From Gemmata palustris (lineage in GTDB: Bacteria; Planctomycetota; Planctomycetia; Gemmatales; Gemmataceae), in NCBI RefSeq assembly GCF_017939745.1, contig NZ_JAGKQQ010000001.1, positions 1,054,001 to 1,118,000 on the forward strand: a DNA stretch of 64,000 bases, given 5' to 3'. The first letter of the stretch is position 1. Each line of letters starts with the position of its first letter. The translations under genes were made by a program, and so were the position numbers. Of the stretch, positions 16,239-64,000 are shown one piece after another. The notes beneath the pieces were generated by a model. It saw nothing but the letters and a program-made list of their open reading frames with translations. It had not been told where the DNA came from and made no database searches.

Positions 16239-17378
16239 ATGGGGCTGCGTGATTGGGTGTCGGGTCAGTTCATCGACATCATCGAGTGGACCGAGCCGAG
16301 CCAGAACGAGATCCTCGCGCACCGGTTCACGCGCCACAAGAACGAGATCAAGAACGGCGCCAAACTCGTCGTGCGCGAGGGGCAGGCCGCCGGGTTCGTG
16401 AAGGAGGGGCAGCTCGCGGACGTGAAAGTGCCGGGCATGTACACGCTCGACACGAAGAACATGCCCATCCTCTCGACCATCCTCGGCTGGAAGTACGGCT
16501 TCGAGTCGCCGTTCAAGTGCGAGGTGTACTTCATCTCCACGCGCCAGTGGACGAACCAGAAGTGGGGCACGCAGAACCCGATCATGTACCGCGACCCGGA
16601 GTTCGGTCCGGTGCGGCTGCGGGCGTTCGGGAGCTACGCCTTCAAGGTCACCGATCCGGGCACGTTCCTGAAAGAGCTCGTCTCGACCGACCCGTCGTTC
16701 GAGCTGTACGAGATCTCCGCGCAGTTCCGCAACGTGGTCGTGTCGCGCTTCATTGACGCGCTCGGTGCGTCGCGCATCCCGATGCTGGACCTCGCGGGGA
16801 ACTACGAGAAGGTCGGGAAGATCGCGCTCGAGCGCATTGCGCCGGAAATGGCGAAGATGGGCGTGTCGCTCACGCAGTTCTTCGTCGAGAACATTTCGCT
16901 CCCGCCCGAAGTCGAAGCGGCCCTCGACAAGCGCTCGCAGATGTCGGTACTCGGCAACCTCGACCAGTACACGAAGTTCCAGACCGCGGAGGCCATTCCC
17001 ACAGCGGCGGCGAACCCGGGCGGGCTGGCCGGAATGGGCGCGAGCCTCGGTGCGGGGCTTGCCGTAGGTCAACAAATGGGTGGCGCGTTCGCGGGTGCGG
17101 CCGGGGCGCCGGGCGTTGTGACCCCCGCGAACACCGCTCCGCCGGCCGGAGCGAGCGCGCCGCCGCCGCTCCCGACCGCGGTCACCTTCCACGCGGCGAT
17201 CAACGGCGCTCAGGCCGGGCCGTTCGATCTGGCGGCGCTCGCGGCACACATCAACTCGGGCACTATCAACCGCACCTCGCTAGTGTGGAGGGCGGGCATG
17301 GCGGGCTGGGCCGCCGCCGAAACCGTGCCGGAACTGGCATCACTCTTCGCCGCGGTACCGCCGCCGCTTCCCAGTTGA
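16239..17378 (+). CDS. SPFH-domain protein with C-terminal GYF_2 domain (YdjI-like)
   Basis: Residues about 1-245 form an SPFH (stomatin/prohibitin-like) domain of the 'virion core protein' subgroup: FIDIIEWTEPSQNEILAHRF, KNGAKLVVREGQAAGFV, MYTLDTKNMPI and RLRAFGSYAFKVTDPGTFL. A Gly/Ala-rich stretch follows (GGLAGMGASLGAGLAVGQQM), then a Pro-rich linker and a GYF_2/DUF4339 domain at about 315-370 (NGAQAGPFDLAALAAHI, VWRAGMAGWAAAETVPEL). In Bacillus the related YdjI works with zinc-ribbon YdjG and recruits PspA to the membrane. The next gene here is a zinc-ribbon membrane protein, but no PspA is seen. The stop codon's last base is the first base of a palindromic repeat. Confidence 0.85.
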   Translation: MGLRDWVSGQFIDIIEWTEPSQNEILAHRFTRHKNEIKNGAKLVVREGQAAGFVKEGQLADVKVPGMYTLDTKNMPILSTILGWKYGFESPFKCEVYFISTRQWTNQKWGTQNPIMYRDPEFGPVRLRAFGSYAFKVTDPGTFLKELVSTDPSFELYEISAQFRNVVVSRFIDALGASRIPMLDLAGNYEKVGKIALERIAPEMAKMGVSLTQFFVENISLPPEVEAALDKRSQMSVLGNLDQYTKFQTAEAIPTAAANPGGLAGMGASLGAGLAVGQQMGGAFAGAAGAPGVVTPANTAPPAGASAPPPLPTAVTFHAAINGAQAGPFDLAALAAHINSGTINRTSLVWRAGMAGWAAAETVPELASLFAAVPPPLPS

Positions 17379-17496
17379 GGCGAACGGCCGGTGTGAGCCG
17401 GCCGGTGACCGACCCCAGCGGTTAATTCATACTCATGACGGCTCGCGGCGTGGGGCGCGAGCGTCTCACCAGCCGGCTCGCGCCGGCCGTTCGCCT
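17378..17496. repeat. Palindromic repeat starting AGGCGAACGGCCGG, copy 1
   Basis: Inverted arms of about 31 bp (17378-17408 and 17466-17496) begin AGGCGAACGGCCGG and end CCGGCCGTTCGCCT. The first base is the A of the SPFH gene stop TGA. A second copy is at 55948-56088, also touching a stop codon. Confidence 0.75.
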
Positions 17497-17506
17497 GGAC
17501 TTGCGC

Positions 17507-19711: not shown

Positions 19712-22345
19712 TCACGCCAGGTCTTTGCCGCGGATCTGCGCCTTCAGCACGTGGCGCAGCCGGCCCTCGACCTTCTCGTGGGCCTTCACGATCTCCTTCT
19801 CGCCGAGCGTGCGGTCCGGGGCCTGATACGTCAGCGCGAACGCGAGGCTCTTCGTGCCGTCCGGCAAGCCGGTCCCGCGGTACACGTCGAAGAGGGTCGC
19901 GTCGGTGAGCAGATCCCCCCCGCCGGCGCGGATCTCGGCCAGCACCGCTTCCGCCGGCGTCGCGTCCGCGACCACGACCGCCACGTCGCGCTTCGCGGGC
20001 GGGAACGTGCTGAACGGCTTGTACCCGTAGCGCGCGGGAACGGCCGCGAGGACCGCTTCGAGGTCGAGTTCCGCCACCTGAACGGCGCGGTCCCCGAGTA
20101 AGAAGTTCGCCGCGACCTTCGGGTGCAGTTCGCCGAACACGCCGACCGCGGTACCGTTCACGCGCAGTTCCGCGGCGCGCATCGGGTGCAACCACGGTAC
20201 GGTTTGCACGGCCGCGAACGTGACGCCGGGCAGGTGCAGGTCACCGGCGAGCGATTCCACCACGCCCTTGAGGTCGTAGAAGTCGTAGCGCGCCGGCGCC
20301 GCGCCCTGCGGGTCGTCCCACGCGGCTCCCGTCCGCCGACCGCTCAGCACGAGTGCGAGCTTCCGCGGTTCGCTCGGCAATCGCTCGTCGGCCTTCGGCA
20401 AATACACGAACCCGAGTTCGTACATGGCTACGCTGTCGGTCGCTTCGAGATTCTTCTGCACCACCGCGAGCAAGCCGGGAAGCAGCGTGCGCCGCATTAC
20501 CGCGCGTTCCGGCGACAGCGGGTTCATGAGGGCGACGAAATCGTCGGGGGAAGAACCTAACCCCCCAACCCCCTTCCCTAGGAAGGAAGGGGGAGCAGAG
20601 CCATCGGCGGTTTTAAGCCCCTCTCCGTTTAGGGGAGGGGTTGGGGAGGGGTTCTTTTCTGCTGCCAGTTTCGTCTCCGCTTCCACACTACTCAGCGAAT
20701 ACGTGATCGCTTCCTGCAACCCCTGATCGGCGAGCAAGTTGCGAACGCGGTCCTCGCCCTCGATATCGCGGTTACCCTTCGGTTCCGGTAGCTCGAGCGG
20801 GAGCAGGCGCTCTTTCAGGTTGTCGTACCCGTACACACGGGCCAGTTCTTCAATGAGGTCCGCGGTGCCGGCCTGGATGTCGAGCCGCGTTTGCGGGGTC
20901 GTTACGGTCCATGCGTCCTCGCCGTCCGGTTCCACCTGAAACTGGAGCGCGGTCAGCACGCGGACGACCTCGGCACTCGGGATATCGAAACCCAGAAGGC
21001 GCCGAATTTCCGCTTGGTCCAGGTCGATGACTTGCGGCGGCAGCGGCGCGGGGTACGCATCTACAACCCCGGCCAGCACTTCGCCCCCGGCGTGGTCGCG
21101 GAACAGTTGCGCGGCACGAACCGCGGCCGGCAGCGCCTGTTCCGGGTGAATGCCGCGGCTGAACCGCGTGCTCGCCTCGCTGAACAGGTTGAACTGCCGG
21201 GCGGTCTTGCGCACGCTGACGAAATCGAAGCACGCGCTCTCGAGCAGAATCGTCGTGGTCGCGGCGCTCACTTCGGTTTCCGCGCCGCCCATGACGCCGG
21301 CCAGCGCGATCGGTCCCGCCGTGTCCGCGATCACGAGGTTGTCCGGCGACAGTTCGCGGTCCTGGCCGTCGAGCGTTTTGAGCATCTCCCCGGCCTTCGC
21401 CGGGCGCACGAGGATCGTCGGGGCTTTACCACCGGCGCGCTTCACGAGCACGTCGTAGTCAAAGGCGTGCAGCGGTTGCCCGTGTTCGAGCATCACGTAG
21501 TTGGTGATGTCCACCGCGTTGCTGATGGGCCGCATCCCGGCGTAGTGCAGGCGCGAACACATCCACCGCGGGGCCGCTTTGAGCGTCACGTTGCGAACGA
21601 TGGTCGCGGTGTAGCGTGAACACAGTTTGGGGTCGGCGATCTCGACGCGCACTTTGCCGTCGATCGTCTCCGCGACCGTCTCCACCTTCGGCTCGGCGAT
21701 GGTCGCGTTCGCGCCGGTGAGCGCGGCCACCTCGCGCGCGATGCCGATCATCGAGAGGCACCGGGCCATGTTCGGCAGGATGTCGAGTTCGACGACGATC
21801 TCGCCGAGCACGTCCTGGGCCGGGGTGCCCGGGACCGCGTCCGCGTCGTCGAGAATGATGATGCCCTCACTCTCCTCCGCGATGCCCAACTCGAAGTCAG
21901 ACATGCACATCGCGTCGTTCGGGAGGCCGCGCAACTCCTTCGGCGCCAGCGTCATGACGGTCTTCTTGCCGTCCTTGCCGGTGAAGAAATATTGCGACCC
22001 GCACAGCCCGAGGATGATCTTCATCCCGCTCTGACCGACAGCGATGTTTTCGGCCCCGGTAATCACGGTCTTCGGCTCGCCCGTGCCGAGGTCGAGTTTG
22101 ACGAGTTTGAGGGTGTCGGCGTTCGGGTGCTTGGTGATCTCGAGCACCTGCGCGACCACGAGTTTGTCGCGCTCCCACACCAGGCCCGCGTCCTCCGGTT
22201 TCACCCGGAGCGTTCCTCGCACCGGCAGCCCAAAAACTTTCACCCCGGAAGATTCCAACCCGGCGATGGTCAGTCGCTCGACGAGCGCGCCCGGATCGGC
22301 CGGGAGCGGGACATAATCTTTGAGCCAGGACAGCGGAACGAGCAT
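19712..22345 (-). CDS. pheT: Phenylalanine-tRNA ligase beta subunit, with internal in-frame repeat insertion
   Basis: The beta chain of the alpha2-beta2 synthetase that charges tRNA-Phe. Domains in order: N-terminal MLVPLSWLKDYVPL; tRNA-binding (EMAP-like) region with HPNADTLKLVKLDLG and PNDAMCMSDFELGI; B3/B4 editing domain (ISNAVDITNYVMLEHGQPLH, TRFSRGIHPEQ); B5 (RLLGFDIPSAEV, DIQAGTADLIEELARVYGYD); the catalytic-like core (MNPLSPERAVMRRTLLPGLL); and C-terminal FDX-ACB (STFPPAKRDVAVVV, RTLGEKEI). At 877 residues it is longer than usual (about 800). About 35 residues near 563-599 (NPSPTPPLNGEGLKT...) come from a mobile palindromic repeat. ATG 22345 was chosen over an in-frame ATG at 22366 because the family begins there. 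pheS is not in the window. Confidence 0.95.
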   Translation of the reverse strand: MLVPLSWLKDYVPLPADPGALVERLTIAGLESSGVKVFGLPVRGTLRVKPEDAGLVWERDKLVVAQVLEITKHPNADTLKLVKLDLGTGEPKTVITGAENIAVGQSGMKIILGLCGSQYFFTGKDGKKTVMTLAPKELRGLPNDAMCMSDFELGIAEESEGIIILDDADAVPGTPAQDVLGEIVVELDILPNMARCLSMIGIAREVAALTGANATIAEPKVETVAETIDGKVRVEIADPKLCSRYTATIVRNVTLKAAPRWMCSRLHYAGMRPISNAVDITNYVMLEHGQPLHAFDYDVLVKRAGGKAPTILVRPAKAGEMLKTLDGQDRELSPDNLVIADTAGPIALAGVMGGAETEVSAATTTILLESACFDFVSVRKTARQFNLFSEASTRFSRGIHPEQALPAAVRAAQLFRDHAGGEVLAGVVDAYPAPLPPQVIDLDQAEIRRLLGFDIPSAEVVRVLTALQFQVEPDGEDAWTVTTPQTRLDIQAGTADLIEELARVYGYDNLKERLLPLELPEPKGNRDIEGEDRVRNLLADQGLQEAITYSLSSVEAETKLAAEKNPSPTPPLNGEGLKTADGSAPPSFLGKGVGGLGSSPDDFVALMNPLSPERAVMRRTLLPGLLAVVQKNLEATDSVAMYELGFVYLPKADERLPSEPRKLALVLSGRRTGAAWDDPQGAAPARYDFYDLKGVVESLAGDLHLPGVTFAAVQTVPWLHPMRAAELRVNGTAVGVFGELHPKVAANFLLGDRAVQVAELDLEAVLAAVPARYGYKPFSTFPPAKRDVAVVVADATPAEAVLAEIRAGGGDLLTDATLFDVYRGTGLPDGTKSLAFALTYQAPDRTLGEKEIVKAHEKVEGRLRHVLKAQIRGKDLA
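20551..20656. repeat. Mobile palindromic element inside pheT
   Basis: The element is bounded by AAGAACC (20551-20557) and GGTTCTT (20650-20656). It contains the inner palindromes CTTCCCTAGGAAGG and CCCTCTCCGTTTAGGGGAGG. A clear second copy is at 63248-63371. It is read in-frame within pheT, in the loop between the B5 domain and the catalytic-like core. Confidence 0.85.
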
Positions 22346-22486
22346 GGCGGGAGCCTTGTGTTTCACTGAAGATCGAATGCGGACATCGTATGGAGACGGG
22401 TCCGTTGGCGTCAGTGGTTCGGGCTCCGGCGCGAACCGGGGCGCAAAATCGTGTGTCCGAGAGGTGAAGTTTTCGGCGAAGCCCCC

Positions 22487-43314: not shown

Positions 43315-43432
43315 CAAGAGTTTTCACCGCAGAGGGCACGAGAGGGCGCGGAGAAAAGCAAAGACCGGAAGATCCATGCTCAACCCGGTCTTTCTCTGCG
43401 CCCTCTCGTGCCCTCTGCGGTGAAAACTCTTG
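43315..43432. repeat. 118-bp near-perfect palindrome
   Basis: The 42-bp arms at 43315-43356 and 43391-43432 match with one mismatch. Inside, AAAGACCGG and CCGGTCTTT pair again. The arms begin CAAGAGTTTTCACCGCAGAG. It lies between nuoM and the isomerase gene, and is a transcript-sized hairpin. Confidence 0.9.
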
Positions 43433-55937: not shown

Positions 55938-55947
55938 GGCTTCCTCA

Positions 55948-56088
55948 AGGCGAACGGCCGGCGTGAGCCGGCTGGTAACTCGCACTGGCCGTTCGCGGAT
56001 CGTTCTCAGGTCAGATCGTTGTGGACATTTCGTGGTGTTCGCGCGGCACAAATTTCCCACCAGCGCGGCTCGCGCCGGCCGTTCGCCT
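55948..56088. repeat. Palindromic repeat starting AGGCGAACGGCCGG, copy 2
   Basis: The arms AGGCGAACGGCCGGCGTGAG (55948-) and the complement ending CGCGCCGGCCGTTCGCCT (to 56088) enclose a unique centre. The last two bases of the element are part of the uxaE stop codon (56087-56089, TAG on the minus strand). The first copy at 17378-17496 also touches a stop codon. Confidence 0.75.
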
Positions 56089-57337: not shown

Positions 57338-57421
57338 GGGGCCGGAACCTTTGTTGTGTTGTGGGGAGTTGTTGTATCGGAGCGGAGCGCAGATTGCGAC
57401 GTTGAGTGGCACCGCGCGGGC

Positions 57422-57672
57422 CGCGTGAAAGGAGAAGAAATGTGCCGCGGATGAGCACCGATAACATGGATTAAAACCAAATCCTATTGGCCGCAAAAAA
57501 GCACAAAGGGCACAAAAGAAGACATGAAGAGAGAGAACGAATTTGAACCAGTTCTGCTCGTGGTTTTCTTTTGTGCCCTTTGTGCTTTTTTGTGGCCAAT
57601 CTGCCTTCTGCTTTGTGTCTGATCCGTGTTTTCTGTGTTCATCCGCGGCGCATTTCTTCTCCTTTCACGCGG
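57422..57672. repeat. Nested 250-bp palindromic element
   Basis: The outer arms, around 57422-57471 and 57622-57672, carry GTGAAAGGAGAAGAAATG and CATTTCTTCTCCTTTCAC. The inner arms (35 bp, one mismatch) are 57486-57520 and 57566-57600 and contain GCACAAAGGGCACAAAAGAA. The outer right arm covers the stop codon of the ceramidase-like gene (57665-57667). Confidence 0.8.
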
Positions 57673-58420
57673 CCGCTTTTTCCCCCTCGACCTTGTAGAA
57701 GAACTGGATCACCAGCGCGGTGCTGATCGCCCCGAACGTGTGCCAGAGCCAGTGGCTCCCCATCGGGAGCGTCGAGCCGATCTCGCGGTCCACGAGCCGG
57801 AAGCACCACGCCATCGCGAAGCTGATGACCCCGGCAACCACCCACCCGCCGTGCCGGAACCGGGTGCGCCACAAGACGAGCGCGATCGGCAACAGGACGA
57901 CGAGCGCGAGCGCGGCGTAGGACAGGTTCACGCTCCACTGCTCGTTTACGGGAGCGATCGCACGGAACAGTACCCGGTTCACCACGATGTAGAACAGGCC
58001 GACGCCGGGCAAAAAGTAGGTCCACGATCTGCGGCCCCACAGCCTGTAAGCCATGAACAGCGAACCGGCCAAACCCAGGAGCGAGATCGGCACCACATCG
58101 AGCAGAAAGTACGCGACCCGAGTGCGGGTGCCGTGGAACAGTACCCCGCCGATCGCGCCGGCGAGCAGGATCGGCATGCACGCCGTCAGAAACGGGAAAT
58201 CTTGGTACCGCCCGCGGACGCGCCAGACAAACGCGAGCGCGATGAATACGAAGAAGGTCGCGGTGACCGTGTTCCACGGTTCGGCAACGAACGGTGCGTC
58301 GGGGCTGAAGGGGTCGGGCGGGGTCTCGGTGTACAGCGGCCCCCAGTCCGGCATCCGCCCGTTTTTGATCAGGAGCCAATCGGGTTGGGTCGCGGGAGCG
58401 TCCCCGTCGGGTGTCGGCAT
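57665..58420 (-). CDS. Ceramidase-like (CREST superfamily) membrane protein
   Basis: A 251-residue protein with about seven membrane helices. An alkaline-ceramidase-like active site is visible: FVAEPWNTVTATFFVFIAL (Glu-x2-Asn), GGVLFHGTRTRVAY (His), and a late LPMGSHWLWHTFGAI with the paired His. An Asp is in CFRLVDREIGS. CREST hydrolases use zinc to cut amides of lipids such as ceramides. The sphingolipid link in planctomycetes is unproven. ATG 58420 was chosen because the longer upstream frame is unconserved. The stop lies inside the palindromic repeat. Confidence 0.8.
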   Translation of the reverse strand: MPTPDGDAPATQPDWLLIKNGRMPDWGPLYTETPPDPFSPDAPFVAEPWNTVTATFFVFIALAFVWRVRGRYQDFPFLTACMPILLAGAIGGVLFHGTRTRVAYFLLDVVPISLLGLAGSLFMAYRLWGRRSWTYFLPGVGLFYIVVNRVLFRAIAPVNEQWSVNLSYAALALVVLLPIALVLWRTRFRHGGWVVAGVISFAMAWCFRLVDREIGSTLPMGSHWLWHTFGAISTALVIQFFYKVEGEKAAA

Positions 58421-58801: not shown

Positions 58802-59167
58802 ATGGCTGCCTGCGCCCTGTTTCCTTTGGAGTTCGCCGCACCGGAGGAGCCGCTGTCGTGGCTCGACCGGCTCCTCGCGCCGGTGCTCTCGGCCGACGAC
58901 GAAGACGACGAGTTCGATGACGACGATGACGATGATGACGACGACGACGACGACGACGACCTCGACGACGACCTCGACGATGACCTCGACGATGACCTCG
59001 ACGACGACCTCGACGACGACGACCTCGACGACGAGTTCGACGACGACGAGTTCGACGACGACCTCGATGACGAGGATGAAGACGACGAGGACGATGAAGA
59101 CGATGAGGAAGAAGGGGACGAGGACGACGAGAAGCCCCAGCCGCCGAAGAAGGGGCCGAAGAAGTAG
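58802..59167 (+). CDS. Asp/Glu-rich low-complexity protein
   Basis: A 121-residue protein. The first ~30 residues are ordinary (MAACALFPLEFAAPEEPLSW, then LDRLLAPVLSADDE). Residues about 32-110 are nearly all Asp with regularly spaced Leu or Phe (DDLDDDLDDD repeats) and then Glu-rich. The end is basic (KPQPPKKGPKK). It would be a very acidic polymer, possibly a calcium or polycation buffer; function is unknown. The coding reality is supported by an ATG with GAGGATCG upstream and a terminator after the stop. The GAC/GAT repeat tract is a replication-slippage candidate. Confidence 0.6.
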   Translation: MAACALFPLEFAAPEEPLSWLDRLLAPVLSADDEDDEFDDDDDDDDDDDDDDDLDDDLDDDLDDDLDDDLDDDDLDDEFDDDEFDDDLDDEDEDDEDDEDDEEEGDEDDEKPQPPKKGPKK

Positions 59168-61362: not shown

Positions 61363-63384
61363 TCACTTTTTCAGCGGTTCCCGCTCCGTTTTGGGATCGG
61401 GTTTCGGTGGGCTGGGCTTCTCTTTCTCGCTGTTCTCACGCATCTTCTTGTCGAAGGCTTCCGCTTCGGTCAGGCTGATGAGGTCGTCGTGGTCCGCGTC
61501 GATCACGTCGAACTCTTCCTTGGTCCCCACGTACTCGGTGCGGGACACGTCGCCGTCCCCGTTGCGGTCCATCTTGCGGAACCACAGCGGCCCCTTCGTG
61601 GGCACGATCACCTGGTTCGGGTTCCCGTTGAACGGCTGGACCGCCGCCTGTTGGATGTAGAACCGGTCGAAGGTGCGCGCGAGCCGCAGCGCGACCGAGG
61701 GCTGAATGATGTTCTTGGTGAGCACCTCGGCCCCCGGTTCTTCGAGCACGACGAGCCGGGTCCAGGCCGTCCGCAGCTCGCGCACGCTGAGGCGCCCGTC
61801 GCGGTTCTCGTCGAGCAACTGGAACAGCGTGGGCGTTTGCACCGCGGGCGTCAGGCTCAGGCTGATGTTGCGGAAGCTGTCCTGGAGGTCGAAGTACGCA
61901 TCGAACTCGTCTTTGGTCATCTTCCCGTCGCCGTCGCGGTCGGCGGTGTCGAAGAGCACGCGCACGAACTGGAACTGGACCGCGTTCGGGCCGGTCAGGT
62001 CTTTCTCCTCAATGTACTTCTTCCCGCCCGCGGCTTGGGTGAAGAGGTACGCGTACTGCTGCTTCAGTGTGCCCTGCGAATACTGCGCGACGGGGGCGAA
62101 GGCCCAGAAGTCGATCGGCTGCCGGCCGACGTGGAGCACGACACGCCCGTTTTCGACCTGTTTGATTACGAATCCGCGGGCCGCAGCGCCCTTTTCGTCG
62201 CTCAACTTCGCGACGCAATCAACAGCTTTCGGCGCGAGTGAAAGGGTGAGGTCGAGGTCCGGCGCACCGGTCCGCCACACGTCCAGTTCTTCGCCATCGA
62301 GCGTGCCGTTGCCGTCCTTGTCCAGCGCCCGGAACGTCAAGTCGTCGAAGCCGACTTCGGCCTTCGTCAGTTCAAAGTCGCCGTTCTTGTCGTACCGTTT
62401 GATGACCTGTTGCGTGATCGTCCCGGGAATCCGCCCGGACCGGTACAGCACGACCATCTGGGTACTCGCCCCGGTGGGGTACGCGCCGTTCGGTGGTTGT
62501 GCGACTTGAACCTGCTGGAACCCGCCGAAGGCCGGGTTGTACAGTTCGGGCGCGAGTTCCTGCATGTTCAGGCACTCGTCTTCGTCCGCGTCGCGGGTGG
62601 CGAGCAGCTTCTCGACCGCCTTGACTTCGTCCTTCGTCAGCTTCCCGTCGCCGTTGGCGTCGAGCATCTTGAAGATGGCTTCCGTCACGGACACGTTTTG
62701 GGCATTGTCCGGTTGGACCGGCTGCTCGCGCATGAGCTGCTCGGCGGTCCGCTTGTAGTAGGTGACGAATTCCTCGAACGAGACCTTCCCGTCCCCGTCC
62801 TTGTCCAGCGCGCTGAGCGTGGGCGCGCCGGTCGCGCCCGGCTGGTAGAAACCGTTCGCGAGCAGTTGCGACATCCCCTGATCGGAGAAGACGAACCGTG
62901 TTTCCTTTTCGCTGATGAACCCGTCGCCGTCGCGGTCACAAAAATCGAACGCCTTCTGTAACCGGTCGCGCCACAACTCCCCGATCGCCTTTCCTTCTTG
63001 GAGGATGGCCACGCGAACGCGGACCGGGCGCGGGTTGGTGAAGACCAGAACTTCAAAAGAGTCGCTCAATTTCGGCGCAACGAACTTGGGCGCGCTGGGT
63101 CGCGGGGCGGGAGCGAGCGTCGGTGCCTCCGGCTTCGGCGCGCCGACTTTGGACAGTTTCCCTCTGGGCGCGGGGGCGAGGGCCGGGGCATCGGGCACGG
63201 CGAGAACCGTACCTGCCAGCCCCACCACACCGAAGAGAGCGAGGACGAAGAACCTAACCCCCCCGCCCCCTTCCCTAGGAAGGAAGGGGGAGCAAAACCA
63301 TAAATGACGGAGCGCTCGTGTTTTTGCTTTAGCCCCTCCCTTCTTAGGGGAGGGGGCGGGGAGAGGTTGTTTTACGGCACTCAC
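61363..63384 (-). CDS. EF-hand protein with repeat-derived N-terminus
   Basis: About ten EF-hand loops are visible, for example DRDGDGFISEKE, DKDGDGKVSFEEF, DANGDGKLTKDE, DKNGDFELTKAE, DKDGNGTLDGEE, DRDGDGKMTKDE, DENRDGRLSVRE and DRNGDGDVSRTE. The protein should bind calcium and be exported, because VRFFVLALFGVVGLAGTVLA is a signal-type helix. The in-frame GTG at 63384 overlaps the DUF1501 stop (GTGA). About 40 residues before that helix (AVKQPLPAPSPKKGG...) are translated from the mobile element at 63248-63371. The ancestral start was probably directly before the helix. Whether the extended form is exported is unknown. Confidence 0.8.
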   Translation of the reverse strand: MSAVKQPLPAPSPKKGGAKAKTRALRHLWFCSPFLPREGGGGVRFFVLALFGVVGLAGTVLAVPDAPALAPAPRGKLSKVGAPKPEAPTLAPAPRPSAPKFVAPKLSDSFEVLVFTNPRPVRVRVAILQEGKAIGELWRDRLQKAFDFCDRDGDGFISEKETRFVFSDQGMSQLLANGFYQPGATGAPTLSALDKDGDGKVSFEEFVTYYKRTAEQLMREQPVQPDNAQNVSVTEAIFKMLDANGDGKLTKDEVKAVEKLLATRDADEDECLNMQELAPELYNPAFGGFQQVQVAQPPNGAYPTGASTQMVVLYRSGRIPGTITQQVIKRYDKNGDFELTKAEVGFDDLTFRALDKDGNGTLDGEELDVWRTGAPDLDLTLSLAPKAVDCVAKLSDEKGAAARGFVIKQVENGRVVLHVGRQPIDFWAFAPVAQYSQGTLKQQYAYLFTQAAGGKKYIEEKDLTGPNAVQFQFVRVLFDTADRDGDGKMTKDEFDAYFDLQDSFRNISLSLTPAVQTPTLFQLLDENRDGRLSVRELRTAWTRLVVLEEPGAEVLTKNIIQPSVALRLARTFDRFYIQQAAVQPFNGNPNQVIVPTKGPLWFRKMDRNGDGDVSRTEYVGTKEEFDVIDADHDDLISLTEAEAFDKKMRENSEKEKPSPPKPDPKTEREPLKK
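63248..63371. repeat. Mobile palindromic element, second copy
   Basis: Same family as 20551-20656: it starts AAGAACCTAACCCCC, contains CTTCCCTAGGAAGGAAGGGG and TCCCTTCTTAGGGGAGGG, and ends GAGAGGTTGTTTT. It is longer (124 bp) because of a different centre (63300-63330). It lies between the DUF1501 stop and the EF-hand signal helix and is open in the EF-hand frame. Confidence 0.85.
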
Positions 63385-64000
63385 GCGAGCACCTCCGAGA
63401 CGGGCTTGGCGCCCTTGTCGACGATGCGGATCGGGCGCCCGACGTTCGACATGTTCTGCTTCTCGAAGTCGATGCCCACCGCCGAGCACACCGTCGCGAG
63501 GAAGTCCACTGCCGGGGTGACGCGCTCTTCGACCGTGGTGCCGTCCTTGCTCGTCTTCCCGACCGCCTGACCGCCCTTGACGCCGCCGCCCGCGATGACC
63601 GTGCTCCAGGCGTTCGGGTAGTGGTCGCGGCCCTTGCCCTGGTTGATCTTCGGCGTCCGGCCGAACTCGCCGGCCCACACGATTGTGGTGGTCTCGAGCA
63701 GCCCGCGGTCCTTGAGGTCGTCCATCAGCGCGGCCCAGGCCGCGTCGAGCGTGCCGCACAAGCCCTTCACGAGATCGAAGTTCTGGCCGTGCGTGTCCCA
63801 GTTGCCGAGCGTGACTTCGATAAACGGCACGCTCTTTTCGACCAAGCGGCGGGCGAGCAAGCACCCCTGGCCGAACAGGTTGCGGCCGTACTTGTCGCGG
63901 GTTTCGTTCTTTTCTTGTGTCAGGTCGAACACCTTACCGCCCTCGGACTGCATGAGGCGGATGGCGCGGTCGTAGGCGGCGGCGTGGCTCTTCGCCATCG
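63381..64000 (-). CDS. DUF1501 family protein, 5' end outside window
   Basis: The C-terminal half of a DUF1501 protein. Visible segments: RDKYGRNLFGQGCLLARRLV, VTLGNWDTHGQNFDLVKG, TTIVWAGEFGRTPKINQGKG, GRDHYPNAWSTVIAGGGVKG, and a C-terminal VGRPIRIVDKGAKPVSEVLA. The frame is open to the window end, so the start and Tat signal lie upstream. The TGA stop overlaps the GTG start of the EF-hand gene, so these two genes are translationally linked. Compared with the copy at 6015-7385 it retains the NWDTHG and GEFGRTP motifs. Confidence 0.9.
   Translation of the reverse strand, partial: MAKSHAAAYDRAIRLMQSEGGKVFDLTQEKNETRDKYGRNLFGQGCLLARRLVEKSVPFIEVTLGNWDTHGQNFDLVKGLCGTLDAAWAALMDDLKDRGLLETTTIVWAGEFGRTPKINQGKGRDHYPNAWSTVIAGGGVKGGQAVGKTSKDGTTVEERVTPAVDFLATVCSAVGIDFEKQNMSNVGRPIRIVDKGAKPVSEVLA

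Follow-up and report, generated by a model that had tools for sequence, protein, structure and literature searches.

A window of 64,000 nucleotides from Gemmata palustris (contig NZ_JAGKQQ010000001.1, positions 1,054,001 to 1,118,000) carries a palindromic DNA element inside pheT, the gene of the phenylalanyl-tRNA synthetase beta chain. The element belongs to a family dispersed through the genome in at least 48 full-length copies, for which in-frame insertion in genes is the rule. We consider it highly likely that it is a small non-autonomous mobile palindrome, organized as an inverted doublet resembling REPINs (repetitive extragenic palindromic [REP] doublets forming hairpins), which inserts without detectable target duplication, and that the additional PheT loop is a tolerated passenger.

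The presence of the element at this site is confirmed. The PheT open reading frame (ORF), an essential translation gene, spans 19712 to 22366 on the minus strand (884 aa) and matches the Pfam domains B3/4, B5, CLM, FDX-ACB, and tRNA_bind. It is the sole full-length pheT found in the own genome (G000), the remaining listed matches to the PheT query being element-sized stretches (30 of 82 candidates scored). Within it, copy 1 (20551 to 20656, no strand assigned) was identified by nucleotide and covariance model matches, and its site is shorter in the relatives' loci L073 and L074. On the plus strand it begins with the outer end AAGAACC (20551 to 20557), which pairs in sequence and in folds with the outer end GGTTCTT (20650 to 20656). 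Between them lie hairpin unit 1, the left half of the doublet (20569 to 20592), a spacer (20593 to 20616) whose length and sequence vary among aligned copies and whose borders are approximate, and hairpin unit 2, the right half, inverted and diverged with respect to unit 1 (20618 to 20640); both units were delimited by a scan and by the homology of the consensus halves. Codons 571 to 605 of PheT, corresponding to 20552 to 20656, give 35 predicted residues (KNPSPTPPLNGEGLKTADGSAPPSFLGKGVGGLGS). Coordinates, ends, and the approximate number of added residues agree with the earlier note, made from the sequence alone, which had also placed the insert in the linker between the B5 and catalytic-like domains. 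This last assignment was wrong: the CLM match covers residues 460 to 698 of the scanned PheT ORF (L033) and the element residues 499 to 534 of the same ORF, so that the insert lies inside the CLM domain and not before it. Compared with dinucleotide shuffles, copy 1 folds with a z-score of −2.7 as DNA (4 of 200 shuffles were as good) and −2.8 as RNA. An Rfam scan of the window gave a single match, a tRNA.

The further copies that the earlier note had suggested counting by BLASTN are present in quantity. A blastn search of the own genome, which comprises 9,228,281 bases in 3 contigs, returned at least 51 matches (40 of 89 candidates scored), with DNA copies reaching 95% identity. A covariance model built from 30 copies gave 141 rows (150 of 2,345 candidates scored), of which 48 places reached at least 80 bits and correspond to full-length copies of about 105 or 129 bp; weaker rows, including many both-strand matches of a second family, were excluded. 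Since not all candidates were scored, these copy counts are lower bounds. The consensus fold of the model showed no compensatory change on both sides, and an exact hairpin pattern search was too strict, returning one place in two orientations. Among 31 genomes, the element was matched in 15. These are the own genome, 13 of the 18 other members of its genus, and 1 of the 5 genomes from its class (E = 6.8e−4); the 7 from its order gave no match. The relative G008 carries 59 copies of at least 80 bits, and G006, also of the same genus, shows one weak match. Across 294 genomes of the phylum, partial matches of up to 38 bases were found in 2 of the 293 others (the rows listed had no more than 3 scored candidates for any genome). 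In these searches, the family so far appears essentially restricted to one genus. The nearest named species by PheT is Limnoglobus roseus (69% identity among the records compared, from which near-identical ones may be left out).

The relation of the copies to the reading frames of their hosts was assessed with the codon usage of 31 ORFs of the window, the best-scoring host frame being taken from 240 nt on either side of a copy. Both flanks showed the same host frame in 39 of 48 copies, and all 39 were stop-free in that frame; when both flank scores had to be positive, 32 of 32 were stop-free. As a control, these elements were inserted in silico into the window 4,000 times; 66.6% of the simulated insertions had the same frame on both sides, and 32.1% of those were stop-free. 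Among the best 30 of the 59 copies of G008, 24 were same-frame and 23 of these stop-free (18 of 18 in the strict set). The in-frame copies are 104 to 132 bp long, and length is divisible by three in 44 of 48 copies of the own genome and in 50 of 59 of G008. The main open frames, one per strand, are present in 45 and 44 of the 48 copies, respectively, and frames are open on both strands in 46 of 48, versus 37% of shuffles. Since usually one frame is open per strand, either orientation is tolerated, and the resulting peptides differ: NPSPTPPLNGEG... one way, PNPLTPFPKKEGG...LSPSPFRGGVGEGL the other. Two neighboring copies (L035 and L038) lie within one ORF.

The PheT site was compared in relatives. 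We found pheT in 30 of the 31 genomes and aligned the loci of 29 relatives, of which L078 and L093 lack coverage of the site, leaving 27. The full element and its residues were absent from all 27, which is not what an ordinary loop shared by orthologs, as the earlier note had considered, would show. In the two closest relatives by PheT (G008 and G010, 92% identical over residues 1 to 569), the distance between anchors is 144 nt, compared with 240 nt here, a net difference of 96 nt. The site in relatives is a loop of variable length with diverse contents. In G015 it holds a perfect 28-bp inverted repeat with an 8-nt loop (L070, 2352 to 2415; z = −12.8), which is in frame and unrelated to the element. 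This palindrome is repeated in the G015 genome (at least 93 matches, both strands counted; 40 of 81 candidates scored), with weak matches also in G000 (12) and G018 (4). The insert of G006 resembles, by eye, half a unit of the second family, and its fold is not significant (z = −0.36); the stretch of G002 is not palindromic beyond chance (z = −0.87).

In structural comparison, the insert is unaligned in both solved chains considered: residues 561 to 610 of the query face 13 residues (518 to 530) of 3pco_B, and residues 574 to 610 face one residue of 2rhs_B. In an AlphaFold model built with 23 sequences (22 of 80 PheT loci were taken, and some omitted rows had stop codons), residues 572 to 605 have a predicted local distance difference test (pLDDT) score below 50, the ten-residue blocks on either side score 72 to 88, and the mean is 84.5. 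Residues 519 to 530 also fall below 50. This prediction is as expected for a disordered loop.

Position at length-variable sites extends beyond pheT. Three genomes with few or no copies (G002, G013, and G017; 30 loci taken) were searched with the protein sequences flanking 22 sites, and at 17 of these an element-poor relative was spanned by one alignment without the element (by eye). In the best alignment per site, 19 gap openings fell within 10 residues of the junctions and 3 elsewhere, 15 of the 17 sites being concerned. Compared with the element-rich G008, 20 sites were heterogeneous. Ten matched in the same orientation with a score of at least 100 (L034, L041, L047, L048, L051, L053, L057, L058, L106, and L107), two (L036 and L109) matched in reverse orientation and differed in their spacer, and eight matched weakly or partly, most of these holding some other stretch; at the L045, L059, and L011 sites, G008 has another repeat family (by eye). 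Simple inversion of a resident copy at L036 and L109 is unlikely, since their spacers differ from those of G008. At 8 of the 20 sites, picked for good same-orientation matches, the ratio of nonsynonymous to synonymous substitution rates (dN/dS) was 0.46 for the inserts (313 codons) and 0.14 for the flanks (712 codons), suggesting that constraint on the inserts is relaxed. The draft G010 (L199 to L218) has N runs and apparent frameshifts in inserts rich in GC homopolymers; these are probably assembly errors, and G010 was therefore given less weight. Automated annotation of such genes may be unreliable.

The host proteins are diverse. Of 30 ORFs running through copies and scanned with Pfam, 27 have a family at an E value of 1e−5 or better (none for L053, L107, and L049), the sole family of L045 being weak. 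They include Mfd-type TRCF, PheT, CCA/poly(A) polymerase, a UPF1-like helicase, MgsA, CobW, a PP-loop protein (TilS-like), QueG, UvrA, SelB, a MobA-like protein, a U32 peptidase, and RecD2, where names beyond those of Pfam are our own reading. In three PSD1/DUF1553 hosts, the insert lies shortly past the DWLA motif. L043, L021, and L104 (by eye also L044 and L052) are paralogous PSD1/DUF1553 genes with the element at a similar protein position, which suggests either a shared tolerant loop or copying between paralogs. L104 apparently has two adjacent inserts.

The left half of the consensus and the reverse complement of its right half align with a score of 19 (maximum of 1,000 shuffles, 8.5). 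Given these homologous halves, the element consists of two hairpin units of about 45 to 50 nt, diverged and arranged as an inverted doublet on either side of a spacer variable in length and sequence. Copies are at times chained, with about 8 bases from GGTT to the next AACC (by eye), and tandem copies also occur. The second palindrome family (about 135 bp) is built like the first; its arms (AACCTACCCCCC...GGGGGGTAGGTT) match strongly, and the spacer between them is long and variable. Its coding pattern is weaker: among 20 loci (L119 to L138, e.g., L123 and L131), 12 are in the same frame and 11 are also stop-free.

Several other explanations can be set against a mobile palindrome. That the PheT insert is an ordinary proline- and glycine-rich loop produced by drift, resembling other genes by low-complexity convergence, agrees with the variable length of this loop among relatives. 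It has almost no chance of being correct given DNA copies up to 95% identical, sense and antisense frames that give different peptides, and the lack of the element in the covering relatives; the nucleotide copies elsewhere in the genome refute it. Selection for a useful mRNA hairpin or protein linker would fit the strong RNA hairpin (−56 kcal/mol) and the open frames kept on both strands. We regard it as very improbable, as the hosts are unrelated and are entered in either orientation, dN/dS is above that of the flanks, and an unrelated palindrome family occupies the same loop of the G015 PheT. Turnover could also proceed mainly by recombination, with gene conversion or template switching swapping resident palindromes at the same loop and little true transposition. 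The mixture of same-orientation, opposite, and weak or partial matches to G008 and the tandem and chained copies are in its favor, but it leaves unexplained how new genes are entered for the first time, as by the full PheT element in this species alone, and why element-poor relatives lack the element at 17 of 22 sites, and we judge it unlikely as the main process.

Two further possibilities concern the enzyme that would move the element. A GTAG-type REP doublet mobilized by a REP-associated tyrosine transposase (RAYT), a Y1 transposase of the HUH type, would account for the inverted hairpin doublet, the variable spacer, and the lack of target duplication. PF01797 (Y1_Tnp) matches occur in 16 of the 19 genomes of the genus, in a count that does not tell RAYTs apart from other PF01797 proteins. 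However, G008, with its 59 copies, gave no Y1_Tnp match at E = 0.001 (5 candidates scored), whereas G009, G013, and G014 have Y1 and no element match. A scan of 13 Y1 loci, 10 from relatives and the complete set of 3 from the own genome, showed no flanking elements, and in one case a copy about 3 kb away. The ends of the family-A consensus (AACCTAACC/GGGGTT) and its unit heads bear no GTAG or CGTC tag (by eye), and the second family has CTAC/GTAG on the outer side only, which is the wrong side of the hairpin. Neither presence across the 19 genomes nor adjacency at the 13 loci supports a RAYT link, which appears distinctly unlikely. A classical miniature inverted-repeat transposable element (MITE), whose AAGAACC/GGTTCTT ends would be recognized by a DDE transposase, is suggested by the terminal inverted repeats and the size. 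Yet among the 39 of 48 copies whose ends could be placed by script, none is bordered by direct repeats of at least 5 bases (0.8 expected), and 4-base repeats were seen 5 times (3.0 expected; shuffle maximum, 8). Moreover, bases beyond AACC/GGTT differ between copies, and neighboring partial matches are 2 to 146 bases apart, too close for an intervening transposase gene, DDE transposases themselves not having been searched for. The chance of a classical MITE therefore seems slight.

Our preferred explanation, a mobile inverted doublet tolerated in host loops, also has observations that weigh against it. No mobiliser was found, in a search that covered Y1 transposases and no other transposase types; Y1 presence, which does not separate element-rich from element-poor genomes, and the result at the 13 loci count here too, and movement of the element was not observed. 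The same loops carry different copies and orientations in relatives, and recombination could produce these as well. The close look at an empty site at the DNA level is limited to pheT, where the loop is itself variable in length, making the insertion point uncertain by several bases. There, the loop DNA of G015 and G016 (L070 and L079) ends in GAGGTTCTT, which by eye resembles an element end; it may be a remnant of an earlier element, in which case the site would have been occupied before in the genus. Nine of the 48 copies lack a consistent frame (L055, L099, L100, L102, L103, L105, L108, L111, and the window copy at 63248), four of which (L100, L105, L108, and 63248) share the right end GGAGAGGTT. 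The frame test is statistical: the codon-usage frame of L056 differs from that of its Pfam-supported aminotransferase-domain ORF, and the flank scores of L032 are negative on both sides. Extra insert-like stretches in some own flanks inflate the number of gaps near junctions, and the dN/dS estimate, from 313 insert codons at hand-picked sites, could be distorted by gene conversion. Low pLDDT was to be expected in any case, because no aligned sequence carries the insert.

With these points taken into account, the mobile doublet could have spread as follows. An enzyme acting in trans, perhaps on single-stranded hairpins, would copy the element. Insertion would be broad, and selection would purge the copies that break the reading frame or the fold. 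In a gene-dense genome, the best survivors would be lineages that are open on both strands and have a length divisible by three, and such survival would have turned in-gene insertion into the main niche. The PheT loop would be a passenger making no functional addition. Recombination between resident copies probably adds to turnover, and host genes for the most part stay readable, each gaining an extra loop that is probably floppy. More tentatively, this may be mobile DNA that lives mainly inside genes, compatible with coding on both strands and in length. Flexible loops already present in the proteins would be its landing places, copies of several families would take one another's place there from species to species, and core enzymes of a large-genome bacterium would steadily gain disordered segments; a new enzyme would move the copies.

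The second copy of the window (63248 to 63371, no strand assigned; nucleotide and model matches), a variant with the right end GGAGAGGTT, lies between two minus-strand ORFs, one at 63381 to 63998 and one ending at 61363. A scan placed its hairpin unit 1 at 63266 to 63289 and unit 2 at 63333 to 63355 (plus strand). It folds far better than copy 1 (z = −5.9 as DNA), and the frame scan bore out that it would be read in a different frame, as described in the earlier note. In the region 63248 to 63383, copy 2 starts 9 bases past the stop of one ORF and heads towards the next. A GTG overlapping that stop could start a protein with an element-encoded N terminus followed by a hydrophobic stretch. Other repeats of the window comprise an inverted repeat with nested arms of 63 and 38 nt (57419 to 57674) and another with a 42-nt arm, 98% complementary (43315 to 43432), both differing in sequence from the element. 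A further palindromic repeat (AGGCGAACGGCCGG...) at 17373 to 17501 has a partial copy 38 kb away (55945 to 55990), and a GACGAC-rich tandem repeat with steps of 9 to 15 nt occupies 58870 to 59157.

In-gene palindromes are best described from Rickettsia, for which, in our view, a reduced genome and weak selection offer an easy explanation. An in-frame majority in the 9-Mb genome of a presumably free-living bacterium would show that genome reduction is not needed. The family also provides numerous natural comparisons between insert-bearing and insert-free versions of an enzyme, and it opens two questions to testing: the nature of the agent that moves such elements, and the possibility that selfish DNA is a regular supplier of new disordered protein loops.

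Three known kinds of repeats come closest to the element, and one of the bacteria concerned, O. terrae, is an Opitutus. Rickettsia palindromic elements (RPEs) are palindromes of 105 to 146 bp found in frame in unrelated conserved genes, where they are tolerated (PMC2229807 and PMC10969869), and nearly half of the 44 RPEs of R. conorii are in ORFs (PMC10969869). The idea of the earlier note, an RPE-like family of in-frame palindromic inserts in planctomycetes, gains support from the length (104 to 132 bp in frame here), from the insertion in frame in genes for conserved proteins as in RPEs (PMC2229807), and from the empty sites. Unlike in Rickettsia, a single family here reaches at least 48 full-length copies, and the host frame is consistent in 39 of these; each strand usually offers one open frame; and the host genome of 9.2 Mb is, judging from its size, not of the obligate-intracellular type. 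Intragenic REPs of the GTAG/CGTC types are reported in several phyla (O. terrae, a relative within the Planctomycetes-Verrucomicrobia-Chlamydiae group, R. conorii, and others), often in DNA repair genes. Their hosts include uvrA, recBCD-type genes, and tRNA synthetases, and the CGTC types have no dedicated transposase (PMC3733652). They share with the present element the occurrence as units or dimers inside ORFs, among them repair genes including uvrA and tRNA synthetase genes, whereas most REPs there are intergenic (PMC3733652), and the units here are longer and unequal, with no head tag (by eye).

REPINs, made of inverted hairpin-unit doublets and a spacer, are regarded as replicating units, and 14 of the 1,067 occurrences of the most abundant 16-mers overlap genes (PMC3116915). 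The inverted doublet of related hairpin units and the variable spacer are alike, but REPINs are mostly extragenic (PMC3116915), whereas 39 of 48 copies here sit in a consistent host frame, and the association with RAYTs was not seen in the 19 genomes or at the 13 Y1 loci. From MITEs of DDE transposons the element differs in having no target-site duplication of 5 bases or more in 39 copies. Apart from a mention of REPs in Planctomycetes (PMC3733652), our literature searches brought up nothing on elements of this kind in Gemmata or any other planctomycete, and the excerpt of the Gemmata massiliana genome paper uses "palindromic" for CRISPR only (PMC4672568). The element appears to work like RPEs, compared here by description, and like intragenic REPs; it is assigned to neither, and its range in these searches is essentially one planctomycete genus. 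Since RPEs, intragenic REPs, and REPINs are published, the kind is already known; new with respect to the literature searched are the family, its design compatible with coding on both strands, and its density within genes of a planctomycete.

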